From: Candidatus Sphingobacterium stercorigallinarum
GTDB taxonomy: Bacteria > Bacteroidota > Bacteroidia > Sphingobacteriales > Sphingobacteriaceae
Reading direction: 5' to 3'
DNA: 56,958 nucleotides
Assembly: GCA_019115805.1 (NCBI GenBank)
Contig: DXCW01000006.1
Span: forward strand, 1 to 56,958
Shown: positions 27,345-52,891 of the stretch, one piece after another
Layout: every line of letters begins with the position of its first letter
Numbering within the stretch: position 1 is the first letter of the stretch
Made by a program: the position numbers and the translations under genes
The notes under the pieces: generated by a model
What the model was told of the DNA's origin: nothing
Databases searched by the model: none
What the model saw: the letters and a program-made list of their open reading frames with translations, nothing else

Positions 27345-28466
27345 TTAAATATTATTTAACATTACCGGCATCACCAACATCAAAATGTCTTCGTGTTCTT
27401 CTTTCACCGCCGGCACCAATAGTCCGGCACGATTAGGAGTACTCATTTCCAACATGACTTCCTCGCAACCTAGATTGCTCAGCATTTCTACTAAAAACTT
27501 CGCGTTGAAACCAATCTCCATATCTTCACCCTCAAATTGACAACTCAACCGTTCATGAGCTTCATTTGAAAAATCCAAATCCTCGGCTGAAATATGCAGC
27601 TCACTTCCTGAAATTTTCAAACGAACTTGATGGGTGGTTTTGTTTGCAAAAATAACGACACGACGAAGTGTATTGAGAAACAATTGCCGGTCTACCGTCA
27701 ATCGGTTTGGATTTAGTTGAGGAATAACCGCCTCGTAGTCCGGATAACGTTCGTCAATCAAACGACAGATCAAATGAATATTACCGAATTGAAAGAATGC
27801 ATTGGTATTGTTATATTGAATACTGACCGGTGTCTCTTCTGAGGGAAGTGACGATTTCAATAGCGTCAATGCTTTCTTAGGTAAAATAATCGTTGTTGCT
27901 TTTTCAACAGACAAATCGGTCCGACGATAACGGACCAACTTATGTGCGTCAGTCGCGACAAAAGTGATCGATTCCTCGGCCAACTGTACATATACACCCG
28001 ACATCGCAGGACGAAGTTCATCGTTACTCACCGCAAAAATTGTCTTATTGATGGCCTCTTGCAGCGTAGCGGCAGCCATTTCCACTTTCGATGTCTGCTC
28101 GACTACTGGAATTTTAGGAAAATCGTCCGCATTCTCGCCGCTGAGCTTATATTTTCCATCGCCCGCACTGATCTCTATGGCCAGAGTTTGCGTATCTACG
28201 GAGAACGCAACCGGTTGGTCGGGTAACGTTTTAAGTGTCTCTATCAAAATTTTAGATGGCATAGCCACTCTTCCTTCTTCTTTTGCTTCAATAGGTAGAG
28301 TCGTGACCATACTTGTTTGCAAATCCGTTGCGGAAATCGTCAGTAGGTTATCCTTAATCTCGAACAAAAAGTTCTCTAAAATAGGTAACACCGTACTGGA
28401 ACTGGAAGCCCCACTAATCGCCTGCAATTGCTTTAATAATGTAGAGGTTGATACGATAAATCTCAT
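27345..28466 (-). CDS. dnaN: DNA polymerase III beta subunit (sliding clamp) DnaN
   Basis: DnaN forms the ring clamp that holds replicative polymerase on DNA. The 373-residue protein shows the three clamp domains in order: N-terminal [19 protein letters not shown], the middle GEYKL-like [18 protein letters not shown] and AATDAHKL-like [12 protein letters not shown], and the C-terminal LVMPVMLN, matching the usual YLVMPM(R) end with a slight change. It diverges from holB. It lies about 5 kb from dnaA rather than next to it, as is common in Bacteroidota. Confidence 0.97.
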
Positions 28467-33496: not shown

Positions 33497-34924
33497 TTAA
33501 GAGGATTTCAACTTCTTTTGAATGTCTTGGACGTAGGTCTTGAATTTCTTATCGGTTTCGATTAAGTCCTCAACGGTTTGACATGCATAAATAACCGTAG
33601 AATGGTCTCTTCCACCAAAAAAGTTCCCAATGGATTTCAAAGAGGATTTGGTATGATTCTTTGCCAAATACATCGAAATTTGCCGTGCTTGTACGATTTC
33701 CCGTTTTCTAACTTTCGATTTCACCATTTCAACCGGCACTTCAAAATATTCGCAAACAAGTTTTTGAATGTACTCCATGGAGATCTCTTTGTGTGTATTC
33801 TTCACAAAGTTCTTTAACATGGATTTTGCTAAATTGAGATCGATTTCCCGCTTGTTTAGTGTGGATTGCGCGAGTAAAGAAACCATAGCTCCTTCCAATT
33901 CACGGACACTATTATCAATCTGGTTGGCGACATATTCAACGACGTTTTCGGGTAGCTCGATACCATCGGAATACATTTTTTTCTTTAGTATCGCCATACG
34001 TGTTTCCAAGTCAGGTATTTGGATGTCCGCTGATAAGCCCCATTTAAACCTGCTCAACAGCCGCTCTTCCAAACCCGATAAGTCTTTTGGCGCCTTATCG
34101 GAAGTAAGAATGATTTGTTTTCCCGTCTGATGGAGATGATTAAAGATATGGAAAAAGATGTCCTGTGTCTTCTCTTTACCGGAAAAGTTGTGCACATCAT
34201 CCATAATGATCACGTCCATGGCCTGGTAAAAATTTACGAAATCGTTAATCGTATTATTTTTCAAGGAGTCTACAAACTGCTGACAAAACTTTTCGCAGGA
34301 CACATAAATCACTAATTTATCGGGGAGGTTTCGTTTGATTTCGTTTCCGATAGCCTGTACCAAATGCGTCTTCCCTAATCCTACATCACCATATACCATC
34401 AGTGGATTAAAGGAGGTTCCTCCAGGCTTGTTTGCTACAGCAAATCCAGCTGATCGCGCCAAGCGATTGCATTCCCCCTCTATAAAGTTATCAAACGTAT
34501 AATTTTGATTTAATTGAGGGTCTACCTGTAATTTTTTTAAACCCGGTATGACAAAAGGGTTCTTAATATTCTTATTTAAAGCAACCGGAACGGGTATGGA
34601 TTGTTTCTTTCCTTCGGCTCCATTTCCATTCGAAGGTATATTTGTCGTATAGGGTGGATTAGCTGAGGATTTCTCTACAACAATATTATATTCCAGACGG
34701 CCCTGCTCTCCCAAAAACTTTTTAACTGTCTTTCTTAGAATGCCAACGTAATGCTCTTCCAACCACTCATAGAAGAACAAGCTCGGCACTTGAATAGTTA
34801 AAACGTTTCCTTCTAGACGTACAGCTTTAACGGGTTCAAACCATGTTTTAAAACTTTGTGTTGGTATGTTGTCTTTGATGACCGCCAAACAACTTTCCCA
34901 TACACTTGTACACGTTTTTTCCAT
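33497..34924 (-). CDS. dnaA: Chromosomal replication initiator DnaA
   Basis: DnaA binds DnaA boxes and opens the replication origin. From MEKTCTSVW (34924) it has 475 residues: domain I (about 1-85), a short linker, the AAA+ domain with Walker A GDVGLGKTH at 179-187 and a Walker B region (VIIMDDVHNF), and the C-terminal helix-turn-helix domain with the box-binding signature GGRDHSTVIYA near 445. The frame opens 31 residues further upstream, but homologues begin near the chosen Met. It is not next to dnaN. The upstream gap has three relaxed DnaA-box matches, which suggest autoregulation. Confidence 0.98.
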   Translation of the reverse strand: MEKTCTSVWESCLAVIKDNIPTQSFKTWFEPVKAVRLEGNVLTIQVPSLFFYEWLEEHYVGILRKTVKKFLGEQGRLEYNIVVEKSSANPPYTTNIPSNGNGAEGKKQSIPVPVALNKNIKNPFVIPGLKKLQVDPQLNQNYTFDNFIEGECNRLARSAGFAVANKPGGTSFNPLMVYGDVGLGKTHLVQAIGNEIKRNLPDKLVIYVSCEKFCQQFVDSLKNNTINDFVNFYQAMDVIIMDDVHNFSGKEKTQDIFFHIFNHLHQTGKQIILTSDKAPKDLSGLEERLLSRFKWGLSADIQIPDLETRMAILKKKMYSDGIELPENVVEYVANQIDNSVRELEGAMVSLLAQSTLNKREIDLNLAKSMLKNFVKNTHKEISMEYIQKLVCEYFEVPVEMVKSKVRKREIVQARQISMYLAKNHTKSSLKSIGNFFGGRDHSTVIYACQTVEDLIETDKKFKTYVQDIQKKLKSS

Positions 34925-35202
34925 TCTTATTTTGTTAATAACTTGAAAACCAATATTTGACAATTTTTTTGTGTATAACTTTTGCCTACAACGAATATGA
35001 CAAAAATAATTGATCAAAAAAATTAAAACACTAAAAAAAACTTAACAAACTGATTATTAGGTATTTAATTGTAATTTTAAGCTTTATTCACACTATAATC
35101 TACAACAAAATTTTTTTATTAACAACAGAAAAATAGGAATAGATTTTATTCAATTTTGCACGATGTAAAATGAGGTGTTATTAAAAATGTGGAAAACTTT
35201 TA
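34925..35202. promoter_or_regulatory. dnaA upstream region with three DnaA-box-like sites
   Basis: This AT-rich gap holds three matches to TTWTNCACA: TTATACACA on the minus strand at 34970-34978, TTATTCACA on the plus strand at 35084-35092 and TTTTCCACA on the minus strand at 35188-35196. A minus-strand TATTTTTG (35001-35008) fits TAnnTTTG and would direct dnaA, with the first box inside the leader. No gene is present. The simplest reading is a self-regulated dnaA promoter; an origin function is the alternative. Confidence 0.55.
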
Positions 35203-35228
35203 ATAAAAAAAGAAGCCTCTCGGCTTCT
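35203..35228 (-). terminator. Terminator after dxs
   Basis: The minus-strand hairpin AGAAGCC/GGCTTCT (35211-35217 and 35222-35228, 4-base loop) is followed by a T-run toward 35203. It lies 49 bases past the dxs stop and separates dxs from the dnaA upstream region. Confidence 0.82.
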
Positions 35229-35276
35229 CTAATACACTTGATTATGAGCAGCACTGGGTCTGCTATCATACAGCAA

Positions 35277-43648: not shown

Positions 43649-44647
43649 TTACAATCCTAATTTCGCTGAGATTTCCAACATTCTTTCAATCGGCTTTTTA
43701 GCCCGGTTGATCACATCGAGTGGAAGAACGATTTCCGGCTGCTCATGGTACAAACAATTATATAGCTTCTCTAAGGTATTTAACTTCATATGCGGACAAT
43801 CGTTACACGCACATAAATTATTCGGTGGAGCAGGTATAAAGGTCTTACTGGGACTTGCTTTCTGCATCTGATGCAAAATACCAGATTCGGTTGCAACGAT
43901 GTATACTGGACTAGGATCTTCAATAGTGAATTTCAGCATCCCGGAAGTAGAACCAATAAAATCGGCCTGATCTAAAATGTGATCTTCACATTCGGGGTGT
44001 GCAATAAATTTGGCATCGGGGTAGGCCATTCGAAGTGCATCGATTCGTTCTTGAGAAAAAATTTCGTGGACCATGCAAGCGCCGTTCCATAACACCATTT
44101 CTCGCCCTGTTTTCTTCTGTACATAAGCGCCTAAATTCCGATCAGGGCCAAAGATTATCTTTTGGTCCTCCGGCAGACTTTCTACAATCTGCACGGCATT
44201 ACTGGACGTACACACAATGTCTGACAACGCCTTCAACTCAGCGGTACAATTCACATAGGTGATAACCAGATGATCCGGATATCGCTCTTTAAACTTAGCA
44301 AACAAATGCGGTGGGCAACTATCCGATAATGAACATCCTGCTTTCAAGTCAGGAAGCAACACTTTTTTATCGGGTGACAGTATCTTGGCTGTTTCGGCCA
44401 TGAAATGCACGCCGGCAAACACGATAACTTCAGCATCCGTTTTTGCTGCCTGCTGAGACAGTCCTAAACTATCTCCAATGTAATCGGCGAGATCTTGTAT
44501 TTCAGATTCCTGGTAATAGTGAGCGAGAATAACCGCATTTTTCTCTTTCTTTAATCTCTCGATTTCCTCCACAAGATCCAATTCTGGATCAATGGCTGCA
44601 TCGATATACCCTTTGGACGCTATATCTATTTCAAACGTTGTATTCAT
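43649..44647 (-). CDS. nadA: Quinolinate synthase NadA
   Basis: NadA condenses iminoaspartate and dihydroxyacetone phosphate to quinolinate. The 332-residue protein has the three cluster cysteines in [28 protein letters not shown] and [10 protein letters not shown]. Substrate motifs [20 protein letters not shown] and [14 protein letters not shown] are intact. The divergent nadB makes its substrate. The 570-base gap between them is far longer than a shared promoter needs. Confidence 0.98.
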
Positions 44648-45217
44648 TTGGTCAAAAAATATTTCCTATTGCTTGGACGAATCAGGAACACAAAGGTAAA
44701 GAAAGAAATTGAAACGAATTCCACATTCCCTTTTTTCAATAAATAATAAGTTCTTTATTTAAAGAAGAGTCTTATGGTTTATTAGTCTGTGGAAAATGGG
44801 GAAAATTAGTTCTTTTTTTATTTTGCTTAATGGATGCTGTTGATTTATCCACAGGTTATCCACAACCGGAAAGTTCTTATGTGTTGATTTACAAGCCTGT
44901 CATTTTTCAGCATTTATTTTTTCCATATTTACTTGTGAAATGTTCATCTCTTAAAGATTGTTAATATTGACGTGATTTTATCTTCATATTCAGTTCATAT
45001 TTGTGTATAGAAATAGTGAAATGTGAATATACGGCGAGTTTTCCTTTTTATTCCACGAGTTATATACACGTTTTGCACATATTTTGTTAATTTGTTGATG
45101 GCCTATTCGTTGTTTGAGTTTTCGAAATGCATCTCCAATGATAGCGAAGAAGTTGATGGATTTTAAACGATACATAAAAGATATGGCCGATGGATAGTTA
45201 ATTCTCTGGTTTCTCTT
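44648..45217. other. Candidate chromosomal replication origin (oriC) between nadA and nadB
   Basis: This 570-base gap has no convincing gene. It contains two perfect DnaA boxes in tandem (TTATCCACA at 44845-44853 and 44856-44864). There are also relaxed matches TTTTCCACA (minus strand, 44788-44796) and TTTTGCACA (plus strand, 45071-45079), and a one-mismatch site at 45022-45030. A very AT-rich stretch at about 44801-44830, next to the perfect pair, could be the unwinding element. dnaA, dnaN, mnmG and two parS sites lie within 18 kb. The call is inference from motif content and context. Confidence 0.68.
44845..44864 (+). promoter_or_regulatory. Tandem perfect DnaA boxes
   Basis: Two copies of TTATCCACA in the same orientation are separated by two bases (GG). 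They give an 11-base phase, close to one helical turn, as for cooperative DnaA binding. This is the strongest DnaA-box pair I found in the window. Confidence 0.8.
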
Positions 45218-46810
45218 ATGAGCGATAGACAAGTAGATTTTTTAATAGTGGGGTCCGGAATTGCCGGCCTGAGTTTTGCATTAAAAGCGGCTCATTTGGG
45301 TAAAGTATTGATTGTAACGAAGTCTAATGAAGATGAGTCGAATACGAAATATGCGCAAGGCGGTGTCGCGGTAGTTACACAGAACAGTGATAGCTTTGAA
45401 AAGCATATTGCAGATACCTTAGTCGCCGGGGATGGCTTATGTGATCCCATGGTGGTGGAGCATGTGGTGAAAGAGGGGCCGGATCGGATTGCGGAGTTGA
45501 TTTCCTACGGGACGAATTTTGATAAAGAGGCGTCTGGGGGATACGATTTGGCCAAAGAAGGTGGGCATTCGGAGCATCGAATTTTGCATCATAAGGACAT
45601 TACGGGATACGAAATCGAACGGTCTTTATTGGCAAAGGTTCACGAAAATCCTAATATCGAGATTCGAACACATTATTTTGCTGTGGATTTAATTACGCAA
45701 CATCACCTGGGTGAATACGTTGATCGGAAACGGGATGATATTACGTGTTTTGGTATTTATGCATTTAATACGGAAAATCAAAAGGTCGAGCGCATTTTGG
45801 CTAAAGTGACCTTGATGGCTACGGGTGGCGCGGGTCATATTTATAGCAGTACCACGAATCCCACAATTGCTACTGGAGATGGAATTGCAATGGTTTATCG
45901 GGCGAAAGGAAAAGTTAGGAATATGGAGTTTATCCAGTTTCATCCGACTGCGCTTTATAACCCCCAAGAGTATCCGGCATTTCTCATTTCGGAAGCTGTT
46001 CGTGGTTTCGGGGGCATATTGAGACGACACACTGGGGAGGCATTTATGGAAGAGTATGATGCCCGCGGCGCGCTAGCACCTCGTGATATTGTCGCACGAG
46101 CAATTGACGCTGAAATGAAGAAATCGGGTTTAGATTTCGTTTATCTCGACATTACTCACCGATCTAAGGAGGATATACTGCAACATTTCCCGAATATTTA
46201 TGAGAAGTGCGCAAGTATAGGCCTGGACATGGCTACGAGTTTTATTCCCGTTAGTCCGGCAGCACATTATCTTTGCGGAGGAATTATGGTGGACGCCCAC
46301 GGTGCTACCTCTATTAAGGGATTATACGCCTGTGGGGAGTGTGCGTCAACTGGTCTTCACGGTGCCAATAGGCTAGCCTCTAATTCATTATTAGAGGCTG
46401 CGGTATATGCCCATAGAATTTACGAAGCTGCATCCAGTACATTTGAGGAGGCGGTGTTTCAAGAGGGGGTTCCAAAATGGGATGAATCGAATACCTATTT
46501 GTCGAACGAAGACATATTGGTCACACATAACTTGCGGGAGACTCAGAAAATCATGAGCGATTATGTGGGGATTGTACGTTCGGATTTCCGGTTAGAACGG
46601 GCGCTTAGGCGGCTTCATTTCCTTTATGAAGAAACGGAATCCTTTTACAAGAATACCAAGTTATCAGTTAAGTTGTGTGAGTTGCGTAATGTAATTCAAA
46701 TTGCGTATTTAGTGGTGCGATCAGCTATGGATCGTAAAGAGAGTAGGGGGTTGCATTATACCACGGATTACCCGATTCACGCAGAGCAATTGACAGACAC
46801 TATTTTATAG
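45218..46810 (+). CDS. nadB: L-aspartate oxidase NadB
   Basis: This FAD enzyme oxidises L-aspartate to iminoaspartate, which NadA uses. The 530-residue protein begins with the FAD-binding VGSGIAGLSFALKAAHLG. It shows GGHSEHRILHHKDITG (active-site region), MEFIQFHPTALY and the C-terminal GLYACGECASTGLHGANRLASNSLLEA. The length is typical. It diverges from nadA across the candidate origin, so the two NAD genes may share it as a promoter region. The coding DNA is noticeably richer in G than that of rightward genes further left. Confidence 0.97.
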   Translation: MSDRQVDFLIVGSGIAGLSFALKAAHLGKVLIVTKSNEDESNTKYAQGGVAVVTQNSDSFEKHIADTLVAGDGLCDPMVVEHVVKEGPDRIAELISYGTNFDKEASGGYDLAKEGGHSEHRILHHKDITGYEIERSLLAKVHENPNIEIRTHYFAVDLITQHHLGEYVDRKRDDITCFGIYAFNTENQKVERILAKVTLMATGGAGHIYSSTTNPTIATGDGIAMVYRAKGKVRNMEFIQFHPTALYNPQEYPAFLISEAVRGFGGILRRHTGEAFMEEYDARGALAPRDIVARAIDAEMKKSGLDFVYLDITHRSKEDILQHFPNIYEKCASIGLDMATSFIPVSPAAHYLCGGIMVDAHGATSIKGLYACGECASTGLHGANRLASNSLLEAAVYAHRIYEAASSTFEEAVFQEGVPKWDESNTYLSNEDILVTHNLRETQKIMSDYVGIVRSDFRLERALRRLHFLYEETESFYKNTKLSVKLCELRNVIQIAYLVVRSAMDRKESRGLHYTTDYPIHAEQLTDTIL

Positions 46811-49095: not shown

Positions 49096-50955
49096 TTACG
49101 TTAAATGTACCATAAGAACGCTGATATCCGCCGGCGAGACGCCTGAAATGCGCGATGCTTGTCCTAGTGTCCGCGGTTTTACTTTCAGTAATTTCTGTCT
49201 CGCTTCTGTAGATAATGAAGTTAGGGAATTATAATCGAAATCAGGGTTAATTTCTCGGTCTTCCATTTTTTTCATTTTATTAACAATCTCCATTTCCTTT
49301 TCAAAATAGCTTTCATACTTGACCTTGATCTCGGCCTGTTCTATCGTGTCAGCGTCGAATTGTTTTACGAAGTCACCGAAATCGGGATTTCCTTCAAAAA
49401 GATCTTCTATGACAATCTGCGGTCTGGATAGTATATTAAACAGTTTTGTTTTCTGATGGATAGGGCTTGATCCGCGATCGACTAAAATCGGATTCATTTG
49501 CTCTAAGCTCACGGAATACTTTTTCAAGTAGTCGATTATATGTTTGGAGTTTGCGATTTTGTCATTTACTTTTTGCAGCCGTTCATCCGAAACCAATCCC
49601 AGTTTGTGTGCTAGTGGCGTTAAACGGATGTCCGCATTATCTTGTCGTAAAAGTAAACGGTGCTCTGCTCGAGACGTAAACATGCGGTAGGGTTCATCCG
49701 TTCCTTTAGTAACCAGGTCGTCGATCAATACGCCGATATAGGATTCGGATCTTTTTAGTATCAATTCCTGATCATCGTTGATGCGTTGGTGTGCATTTAT
49801 TCCAGCCATCAACCCTTGTGCTCCGGCTTCCTCGTAACCCGTAGTGCCGTTAATTTGTCCAGCAAAAAATAGATGTTTTATTTTTAACGTTTCTAGGGTT
49901 AAATCTAACTGCATAGGAGGGAAGTAGTCGTATTCTATCGCATAACCGGGACGGAACATATTGGCTTGCTCGAAACCTGGAATCAAACGCATAGCACGGA
50001 GTTGTACATCTTCAGGAAGAGAAGTGGAAAAGCCATTTACGTAAATCTCCACCGTTCGAAATCCTTCCGGTTCTACAAAAATTTGATGTCGATCTCGTTC
50101 GGAAAAGCGATTGATTTTATCTTCAATTGACGGACAGTAACGCGGACCTAATCCCTTTATTCGCCCAGTAAACATAGGGGATTGTTCAAATCCTGTTTTT
50201 AAAATTTCGTGAACTTCGGGGTTCGTATAAGTAATCCAGCAACAACGTTGTTCAGTAGGGGTTTTAGTATCAGTGAAAGAAAAGCGTCCGGGATTTTCAT
50301 CGCCCCATTGTTCTTCCATAGCTTCATAGTTTAAACTTCTGCCGTCGACCCGCGGGGGCGTCCCGGTTTTCATCCGACCCGATTCAAAGCCTAAAGTAAT
50401 CAGTTGTTCGGTAATGCCAGTAGCAGCGCGTTCACCCGTTCTCCCCCCGCCGAATTTCTTTTCTCCGACATGGATGACACCATTCAAGAAGGTGCCGTTT
50501 GTCAATATTACAGCATCACTCTCAATGCGGAGACCCATGGTAGTAACCACACCTTTAGCTTGGTCGCCATCGATAATGATTTCCTTAACCGTGTCTTGCC
50601 ACATGTCTAGGTTGGGCAAAGCTTCCAATTGTAGTCGCCACTCTTCCGCAAATCGCATGCGGTCGTTTTGTGTACGCGGACTCCACATGGCCGGCCCCTT
50701 CGATCTATTTAACATACGGAATTGCAGCGTTGATTTGTCGGCAATGATTCCCGTATATCCACCCATCGCATCAATTTCTCTTACGATTTGTCCCTTCGCT
50801 ACTCCACCGATTGCGGGATTGCAACTCATCTGTGCAATCACTCCCATATTCATCGTAATTAGAAGAACCGATGATCCGAGGTTCGCAGCTGCAGCCGCGG
50901 CTTCACATCCTGCATGGCCACCACCAACTACTATTATATTATATTTTTTAAACAT
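49096..50955 (-). CDS. mnmG: tRNA uridine-5-carboxymethylaminomethyl enzyme MnmG (GidA)
   Basis: MnmG, with MnmE, makes the cmnm5 modification of the wobble uridine in several tRNAs. The 619-residue protein has the FAD motif [19 protein letters not shown] (about 9-27), [37 protein letters not shown] and the C-terminal region with [14 protein letters not shown]. It is often next to the replication origin in bacteria. Here it is about 4 kb from nadB and directly adjacent to two parS-like palindromes that lie just upstream of its start. Confidence 0.97.
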
Positions 50956-50970
50956 ATTTTTTTATTTTAG

Positions 50971-50984
50971 GTTTCACGTGAAAC
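50971..50984. other. parS-like ParB-binding site 1
   Basis: The perfect 14-base palindrome GTTTCACGTGAAAC matches the core of the parS consensus TGTTNCACGTGAAACA at every core base; the outer bases differ (G on the left, G on the right). It lies 16 bases upstream of the mnmG start, in a 55-base intergenic gap. ParB binding would mark the chromosomal centromere. ParA/ParB are not in the window. Confidence 0.88.
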
Positions 50985-50996
50985 GCTGAGTTAAAA

Positions 50997-51010
50997 GTTT
51001 CACGTGAAAC
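50997..51010. other. parS-like ParB-binding site 2
   Basis: This is a second perfect GTTTCACGTGAAAC, 12 bases after the first. It abuts the stop codon of the ABC-F gene (51011). Two copies of so rare a palindrome in one 55-base gap are very unlikely by chance. The flanking bases (A left, T right) also form a palindrome, giving 16 symmetric bases. Confidence 0.88.
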
Positions 51011-52891
51011 TTATGCGAATTCAGAAAGCACTAACCATCGGTCGGTTTTTTTATCGAGTGTGTTTTTTAGTTCTTCGATGACTTTTGCAAGTTCTGTAAG
51101 CTTAAGGTGGTCATCTGTCTCGGATAGTTTATAGGTGTGCATTTCAATGGATCGTTCTAGAAATTCGATTTCTGTTCCCAGATCTTTGAATTCTATTTGT
51201 TCTTTATAAGTGAGGGTTTTTTTTGATACCGTCTTCTCTGGCGCTGTGTTTTTAGGCTCAGACTCTTTTACACTTTTAATTGACTGTTCTTGTTCTAATT
51301 TGAAGTCGGCGTAGTTCCCGTTGTAGATGGTGATGTCACCACTTCCGGTGAAAATAAAAAGTTGGTCGGTCAATTTATCTAAAAGATAGCGGTCGTGTGA
51401 GACCAGTATCAACACCCCCGGAAATTCCTCAAGGAACTCTTCAAGGACATTCAAAGTGTCTATATCTAAATCATTAGAAGGCTCATCTAAAATCAAAAAA
51501 TTTGGATTAGCCATTAGTATTCGCAAGAGGTGCAAACGCTTTTTTTCGCCACCACTGAGTTTTTCCACCAAGCCAAACTGCTTATTTGGAGGAAAAAGAA
51601 ACTGGGTCAGCAGTTGGGAAGCGGTTATTTGCTCTCCATTTTTAAGTTCAATATACTCCGCCACATTTTTGACAATATCAATAACACGGTCTTGGGAATT
51701 GAATTGTAGGCCCTCCTGTTTGTAATAACCGAACCGAGTGGTTTCCCCTAAATCGACAGTTCCTGAACTTGGCGGTAGCGCGCCGGTAATCAAATTAAGA
51801 AATGTTGTTTTACCACTGCCGTTTTTTCCCGCCAAACCGATACGATCGGATTTTTTAAAGACGTATGAGAATGAGGAAATAATCTCTTTATTTTTCGTCC
51901 GGAAGGAGATGCCCATTAGTTCCAGTATCTTTTTTCCTTGCCGGGTCATATCAACGGAAAGGGAAAGTTTTTCTTTCGCCATCGGCCCTTTCGATTTCTC
52001 TTCGAGATCATAGAAACTCTCGATACGAGCTTTCGCTTTGGTCCCCCGTGCCTGCGGTTGTCGGCGCATCCATTCCAATTCCTTTCGCCATAAATTTCTC
52101 GCCTTATCAGCAGAGGCGATTAACATTGTTTCCCGCTCGTTCTTTTTCTCTAAAAAATACGCATAGTTTCCTCGATAGTTGTATATTTTTCCTTGATCTA
52201 GTTCGCGAATTTCGGTGCAGACTTGATCGAGAAAATACCGGTCGTGGGAAACAACAATAACGGTCCTATTTTTACTTATCAGCAGTTTTTCCAACCATTC
52301 AATCGTCTCTATATCTAAGTGGTTAGTCGGTTCGTCTAATATAAATACATCGGGTTCGTCGATCAGTAGTTTGGCTAACGCAAGCCGCTTCCGTTGTCCA
52401 CCACTGAGTGTGCCGATCGTCTGGTGTAGATTTTCAATTTGAAACCGACCCAGAATTTGTTTAAATGACTGTTCGTATTCCCAAGCATCCAAATGGGTTA
52501 ACTTAGCGGTCAAGTTATGAAAATTATCGGAAGTAAAATCCTGATTATCAACTAGTTGATCGTATTCTCGTATCAATTGTTGGCGTTCGTCGTCTGCCGA
52601 GTATATGTAATCGCGTATGGCCTGGTCGTAGTTGAATTCCGGTTGTTGGGGTAGGTAGCCGATCTGAATCCCTCGTTCTTTTACTACTCTCCCTTCTTGT
52701 GGTTGCAATTCCTCTGCCAATATCCTTAACAGGGTTGATTTTCCTGTTCCATTAACACCGACTAACGCAACGCGATCGCCTTTTTGTACAGCGAAATGGA
52801 TTTCTTTAAACAACCAACGGTCGTTAAAGGCATGACTAACTTTTTCTGTGCTTAAAATACTCACCTGTTCATCCTTAAAATACGAGTACAA
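51011..52891 (-). CDS. ABC-F family ATPase (Uup-like)
   Basis: This 626-residue soluble protein has two ABC domains. First half: VGVNGTGKST, LSGGQRKRLALAK and ILDEPTNHLD. Second half: AGKNGSGKTT, LSGGEKKRLHLLR and ILDEPSNDLD. A linker (about 245-290) and a C-terminal coiled coil (about 560-626) resemble Uup. ABC-F proteins work on ribosomes; Uup-like members also affect DNA rearrangement. No membrane domain is seen. A GTG at 52864 (VSILSTEKVSHAF) could be the real start; the ATG at 52891 is kept. Its stop touches a parS-like site. Confidence 0.93.
   Translation of the reverse strand: MYSYFKDEQVSILSTEKVSHAFNDRWLFKEIHFAVQKGDRVALVGVNGTGKSTLLRILAEELQPQEGRVVKERGIQIGYLPQQPEFNYDQAIRDYIYSADDERQQLIREYDQLVDNQDFTSDNFHNLTAKLTHLDAWEYEQSFKQILGRFQIENLHQTIGTLSGGQRKRLALAKLLIDEPDVFILDEPTNHLDIETIEWLEKLLISKNRTVIVVSHDRYFLDQVCTEIRELDQGKIYNYRGNYAYFLEKKNERETMLIASADKARNLWRKELEWMRRQPQARGTKAKARIESFYDLEEKSKGPMAKEKLSLSVDMTRQGKKILELMGISFRTKNKEIISSFSYVFKKSDRIGLAGKNGSGKTTFLNLITGALPPSSGTVDLGETTRFGYYKQEGLQFNSQDRVIDIVKNVAEYIELKNGEQITASQLLTQFLFPPNKQFGLVEKLSGGEKKRLHLLRILMANPNFLILDEPSNDLDIDTLNVLEEFLEEFPGVLILVSHDRYLLDKLTDQLFIFTGSGDITIYNGNYADFKLEQEQSIKSVKESEPKNTAPEKTVSKKTLTYKEQIEFKDLGTEIEFLERSIEMHTYKLSETDDHLKLTELAKVIEELKNTLDKKTDRWLVLSEFA

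Follow-up and report, generated by a model that had tools for sequence, protein, structure and literature searches.

A predicted chromosomal replication origin between nadA and nadB, remote from dnaA, in Sphingobacterium and related Sphingobacteriaceae

Introduction

Does chromosome replication in Candidatus Sphingobacterium stercorigallinarum start beside dnaA, or in a gene-free gap between nadA and nadB at some distance from it? The question arises on a single contig (C158, 56,958 nucleotides) of a 243-contig, 3.14-Mb assembly, which is referred to here as the window; its NadB is 82% identical to that of Sphingobacterium faecale, which is among the nearest named relatives. From strand asymmetry, DnaA boxes and conservation, we predict with high confidence that oriC, the origin of the chromosome, is located in the nadA–nadB gap. 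Among the papers searched, we found neither a published nadA–nadB origin nor an oriC of Sphingobacterium or Pedobacter; the origin may already figure in DoriC as a prediction. The gap had been proposed as oriC in the initial annotation of this DNA, to which the present analysis adds its fixed position across the family and a drift of box letters at constant spacing, the latter read with the reserve given below.

Results

The genes and sites that bear on the question are the following.

27345–28466: dnaN
33497–34924, minus strand: dnaA, encoding the initiator (TIGR00362; recognition helix GGRDHSTV)
34925–35276: dnaA–dxs upstream region, with register-conserved boxes of its own
43649–44647, minus strand: nadA (NF006878/TIGR00550)
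44648–45217: predicted oriC, the gene-free gap between the divergent nadA and nadB; skew breakpoint, kept in the genus and the family
45218–46810, plus strand: nadB (TIGR00551)
49096–50955: mnmG
50970–51011: two parS-like palindromes, GTTTCACGTGAAAC, on the upstream side of mnmG and 6 kb from the predicted oriC

The order dnaN–dnaA–oriC–mnmG–parS given in the initial annotation is true of the 56,958-nt window, and so are the distances that accompanied it, with dnaA about 10 kb from the gap and the parS pair (palindromes starting at 50970 and 50996) about 6 kb to its right. A single parS-like site is found near mnmG in each of three genus relatives (G132, G179 and G197).

Strand asymmetry places the replichore boundary at the gap

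The raw cumulative GC-skew minimum of the window lies at 44737, inside the nadA–nadB gap. Because gene orientation may move such a minimum by kilobases, we did not use it as sole evidence, and fitted the third-codon-position GC skew of each gene with a term for gene strand and a term for the side of a breakpoint that was scanned along the window. The corrected breakpoint is 45217, at the nadB start; it surpasses the neighbouring gene boundary by 3.3 logL units and the dnaA site by 12. A skew minimum at about 45 kb had been predicted for the chromosome and was obtained in the window itself, and the accompanying claim that the dnaA locus is not the origin is borne out by the poor fit of that site. 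The effect at the gap survives the omission of nadA and nadB (0 of 2000 permutations). The skew minimum and replichore boundary looked for in an origin are found at the nadA–nadB gap.

The same break recurs in the genus. With the window counted, the breakpoint is at the gap or at most 1 logL unit away in seven of nine genomes: the gap is the best corrected breakpoint in G147, G215 and G221, and is within 1 unit of it in G174, G197 and G112. In G147, a single contig of 4.03 Mb, the dnaA site is 6.6 logL units worse than the gap, and the skew of 20-kb samples stays negative as far as 0.62 Mb, is positive between 0.8 and 2.6 Mb apart from a single weak exception, is close to zero at 2.8 Mb and is negative again from 3.0 Mb onward. 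The negative-to-positive flip of this chromosome is at nadA–nadB and the reverse flip is about 2.0 Mb, or approximately half a chromosome, away, which fits an origin located at 0.779 Mb with the terminus opposite. Raw cumulative minima are off the gap by 4 kb in G147 and G174 and by 18 kb in G221, offsets that are probably effects of gene orientation.

Three relatives are natural experiments in which dnaA was relocated and the skew break stayed at nadA–nadB. The distance between dnaA and nadA–nadB is 24 kb in G221, 49 kb in G112 and 58 kb in G197; in the same order, the dnaA site is 27.0, 9.4 and 28.8 logL units below the best breakpoint, and the gap surpasses it by 27, 8.5 and 28.6 units. In the remaining two genomes, G132 and G179, the break was not placed at the gap, both the gap and dnaA being poor fits, and a run of opposite skew extends between nadA and dnaA, which probably reflects an inversion that occurred recently in the vicinity of the origin.

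The dnaA locus

The dnaA reading frame is open upstream (33497–35017), and complete relatives begin at the Met of 34924, which is likely the true start rather than the TTG at 35017. The dnaA–dxs gap (34925–35276) holds three relaxed boxes. Two boxes upstream of dnaA are fixed in nine genus genomes, TTATTAACA (minus strand) at +9 and TTTTCCACA (minus strand) at +264 from the start, and at +192 TTTTCCACA and TTATTAACA swap between species, which suggests that TTATTAACA is a variant DnaA box. In G132 (L157–L170) and G179 (L177–L186), dnaA is parted from dxs by about 56–105 kb, and the run of opposite skew falls in between.

Because the dnaA–dxs region has a box count comparable to that of the nadA–nadB gap, boxes alone cannot decide which of the two is the origin; skew and comparison decide. 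An oriC in the dnaA–dxs region, with the nadA–nadB boxes as accessories, would conform to an arrangement found in many bacteria and would account for the three relaxed boxes of this region in the window and for those that keep their positions in all nine genomes. However, across the seven informative genomes the dnaA site is 4.5–29 logL units below the best breakpoint, the decisive evidence coming from the genomes with dnaA 24–58 kb away, and in G029, from outside the genus, dnaA lies within one replichore, with the same skew sign on both sides. We consider an origin at dnaA very unlikely, and the conserved boxes there probably serve autoregulation. The predicted origin flanks neither dnaA nor dnaN: dnaA is 10 kb from the gap in the window, some members of the genus have 24–118 kb between the two, and in several further genera the separation reaches hundreds of kb.

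Elements within the gap

The elements recognized in the gap are listed from left to right.

44691–44698, minus strand: candidate −7 element of the nadA promoter, TACCTTTG; consensus CACAAAAGTA kept in the genus
44717–44725, plus strand: near DnaA box AATTCCACA (AAATCCACA in relatives), kept in 24 non-redundant genus gaps
44726–44787: candidate DNA unwinding element, AT-rich, from nearest-neighbour stability and genus conservation
44788–44796, minus strand: DnaA box R1, TTTTCCACA, relaxed; identical in 24 of 34 genus gaps, TTATCCACA in 5 of 34
44845–44853, plus strand: DnaA box R2a, TTATCCACA, perfect; TTATTAACA or TTATCAACA in register in some relatives
44856–44864, plus strand: DnaA box R2b, TTATCCACA, perfect, 11 bp after R2a; identical in 24 of 34
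44919–44927, plus strand: near-box TTTTCCATA, conserved in the genus
45071–45079, plus strand: DnaA box R4, TTTTGCACA, relaxed; TTTTCCACA in most relatives
45080–45096, plus strand: TATTTTGTTAATTTGTT, adjoining R4 and almost invariant in the genus; putative role discussed below

Every element of the initial description of this 570-base gap, namely two perfect tandem boxes, two relaxed boxes, one near-box and an AT-rich stretch adjoining them (at about 44726–44787), was located. The cluster exceeds chance. The 3.14-Mb genome contains 47 perfect and 351 relaxed boxes, slightly more than the 39 and 290 matches to reversed-pattern controls; four relaxed boxes are observed in the 570 bp, compared to 0.064 expected, and by our own arithmetic the chance of four is about 7e-7 per window of this length and about 0.004 genome-wide. 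The tandem perfect pair R2a/R2b occurs once in the whole genome. Within the gap, nearest-neighbour stability is lowest for the 50-mer 44735–44784, less stable 50-mers being present elsewhere in the window; the AT-rich stretch reads TTATTGTTTATTAG in relatives, ends beside R1 in a block conserved in the genus (TTGTTTATTAG), and is still recognizable in Pedobacter and Mucilaginibacter.

We compared 34 nadA–nadB gaps of the genus (473–570 bp). The R1–R2a–R2b–R4 register is 57/11/215 bp in 27 of them, and in the remaining gaps no interval differs by more than 1 bp (R2b–R4, 215–216 bp in all 34), so that the comparison with related species called for in the initial annotation found the arrangement kept; the 57-bp register is also present in several gaps of the wider family. 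The letters are mostly TTATCCACA, TTATTCACA and TTTTCCACA, with TTATTAACA, TTATCAACA and TTACCAACA in addition at R2a. G038 (L083) departs from this register: its gap has expanded to about 1.6 kb and retains the tandem boxes, but its R2b–R4 spacing is 151 bp. About 85–90 bp beside nadB (45115–45217) are missing from all other genus gaps examined (473–508 bp); this stretch is single-copy in the genome and contains a 19-codon ATG reading frame.

At the left edge, the CACAAAAGTA block contains, on the minus strand, TAnnTTTG, which we take to be the −7 consensus of Bacteroidota promoters; with its TACCTTTG version on the nadA side, it is probably the nadA promoter and outside the origin proper. 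The TATTTTGTTAATTTGTT block by R4 could be either a T-rich strand motif, and thereby a second candidate unwinding element, or the nadB promoter. Could the whole gap, then, be merely a conserved two-way promoter bound by DnaA or another regulator? The genes are divergent, the −7-like element is kept, and an Rfam search of the gap gave a chance match only and no riboswitch, so that regulation would require proteins. Such a promoter leaves unexplained the replichore skew break, which persists when nadA and nadB are omitted, the rigid register of four DnaA boxes, and the break that remained at the gap after dnaA was relocated; we regard this explanation as extremely improbable.

A site that titrates or reactivates DnaA (datA/DARS-like), with the origin a few kb off, for example near mnmG and parS, would suit the parS pair, which lies 6 kb to the right, and skew by itself resolves to approximately one or two genes. 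Nonetheless, the corrected fit falls within 1–2 kb on either side, both in the window and in the pooled family data below, and the only other comparable box cluster of the window is the one upstream of dnaA. We assign this possibility, too, an extremely small probability and retain the gap itself as the predicted origin.

The wider family

In the genomes of other genera for which the distance was taken, nadA usually lies far from dnaA, in many cases hundreds of kb away or on a separate contig. The pooled test covered 19 loci (319 genes) from Pedobacter, Mucilaginibacter, Parapedobacter, Daejeonella and other genera of the family. Its optimum falls on the gap itself, with a logL gain of 26.8 (0 of 2000 permutations), and each of the other positions scanned gave a smaller gain (15.7 at −1 kb, 11.5 at +2 kb); when nadA and nadB are left out, the gain is still 10.9. 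Among individual genomes, the skew sign changes across the nadA–nadB flanks and not across the dnaA flanks in G029, and flips at the nadA flanks in G052 too; in G111, the skew of the flanks favours no site.

The gaps outside the genus have few classical boxes. The related motif TTAYYAACA occurs in them 32 times, versus 1.4 in shuffles, and where both members of the minus/plus pair are found, their register is about 57 bp (62→119, 108→165, 109→166, 186→243 and 59→116). Five Pedobacter and Mucilaginibacter gaps (L003, L006, L008, L011 and L021) have 245–249 bp between the R2a position and the distal box, compared to 226 bp in Sphingobacterium, the excess being approximately two helical turns. 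The DnaA recognition helix is identical among the compared genera, with GGRDHSTVIYACQTVEDL invariant in six sequences.

One reading of these data, to which we give an even chance, is that the origin of the family is fixed between nadA and nadB and that its DnaA boxes have drifted in sequence, from TTATCCACA to TTAYYAACA, at constant spacing and with the recognition helix unchanged. Such a drift is plausible because boxes of the type TT(T/A)TCAACA are on record in mollicutes and phytoplasma (PMC3322544), and TTATCAACA-type boxes on the linear chromosome of Cyanothece (PMC4674748).

Discussion

Judged by its sequence features, the predicted origin appears to be of the ordinary DnaA-dependent type; it is remote from dnaA and keeps its place throughout the family. 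Under the mechanism that we propose, DnaA would bind the inverted R1, the tandem R2a/R2b and the distal R4, all at fixed spacing. The resulting complex would melt the AT-rich stretch 44726–44787 and capture one of its strands through TTATT/TTGT-type motifs, as described for the Escherichia coli oriC (PMC10316083); the T-rich block beside R4 is the second candidate for the opened stretch. Loading of DnaB would follow, and firing would presumably be bidirectional, with one fork moving leftward past dnaA and the other rightward past mnmG and parS.

The gap resembles the E. coli oriC (gidA/mnmG–mioC) in having DnaA boxes in both orientations and an AT-rich region, tens of kb from dnaA, and in the TTGT/TTATT-type motifs of the presumed unwinding strand (PMC10316083). 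It differs in its location between nadA and nadB, with mnmG 4 kb away instead of adjacent, and in the 11-bp spacing of R2a and R2b, and we claim no sequence homology. With the bipartite dnaA–dnaN origin of Bacillus subtilis it shares TTATCCACA-type boxes; unlike that origin, it does not adjoin dnaA, and a search by eye beside each box for a DnaA-trio (TAG/TAA repeats) found no convincing repeat. The origin versions of Pedobacter and Mucilaginibacter have the same sixth-base change as the TTATCAACA-type origins of mollicutes/phytoplasma and Cyanothece, but here, in contrast to those unrelated taxa, the change is inside one family and at a conserved register. If the drift is real, either the DnaA of this family tolerates a base at position 6 that most bacteria refuse, or Pedobacter and Mucilaginibacter use weak boxes.

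Genomes of this family are often rotated to dnaA, the assumed marker of the origin. The nadA–nadB gap provides a precise and testable origin for the whole family, and is the fragment on which oriC plasmids could be built in Sphingobacterium, Pedobacter and Mucilaginibacter. As the predicted origin, it would also be the correct zero point for metagenomic estimates of replication rate. Finally, the gaps of the family form a natural series of DnaA boxes in which the letters vary and the spacing is constant.
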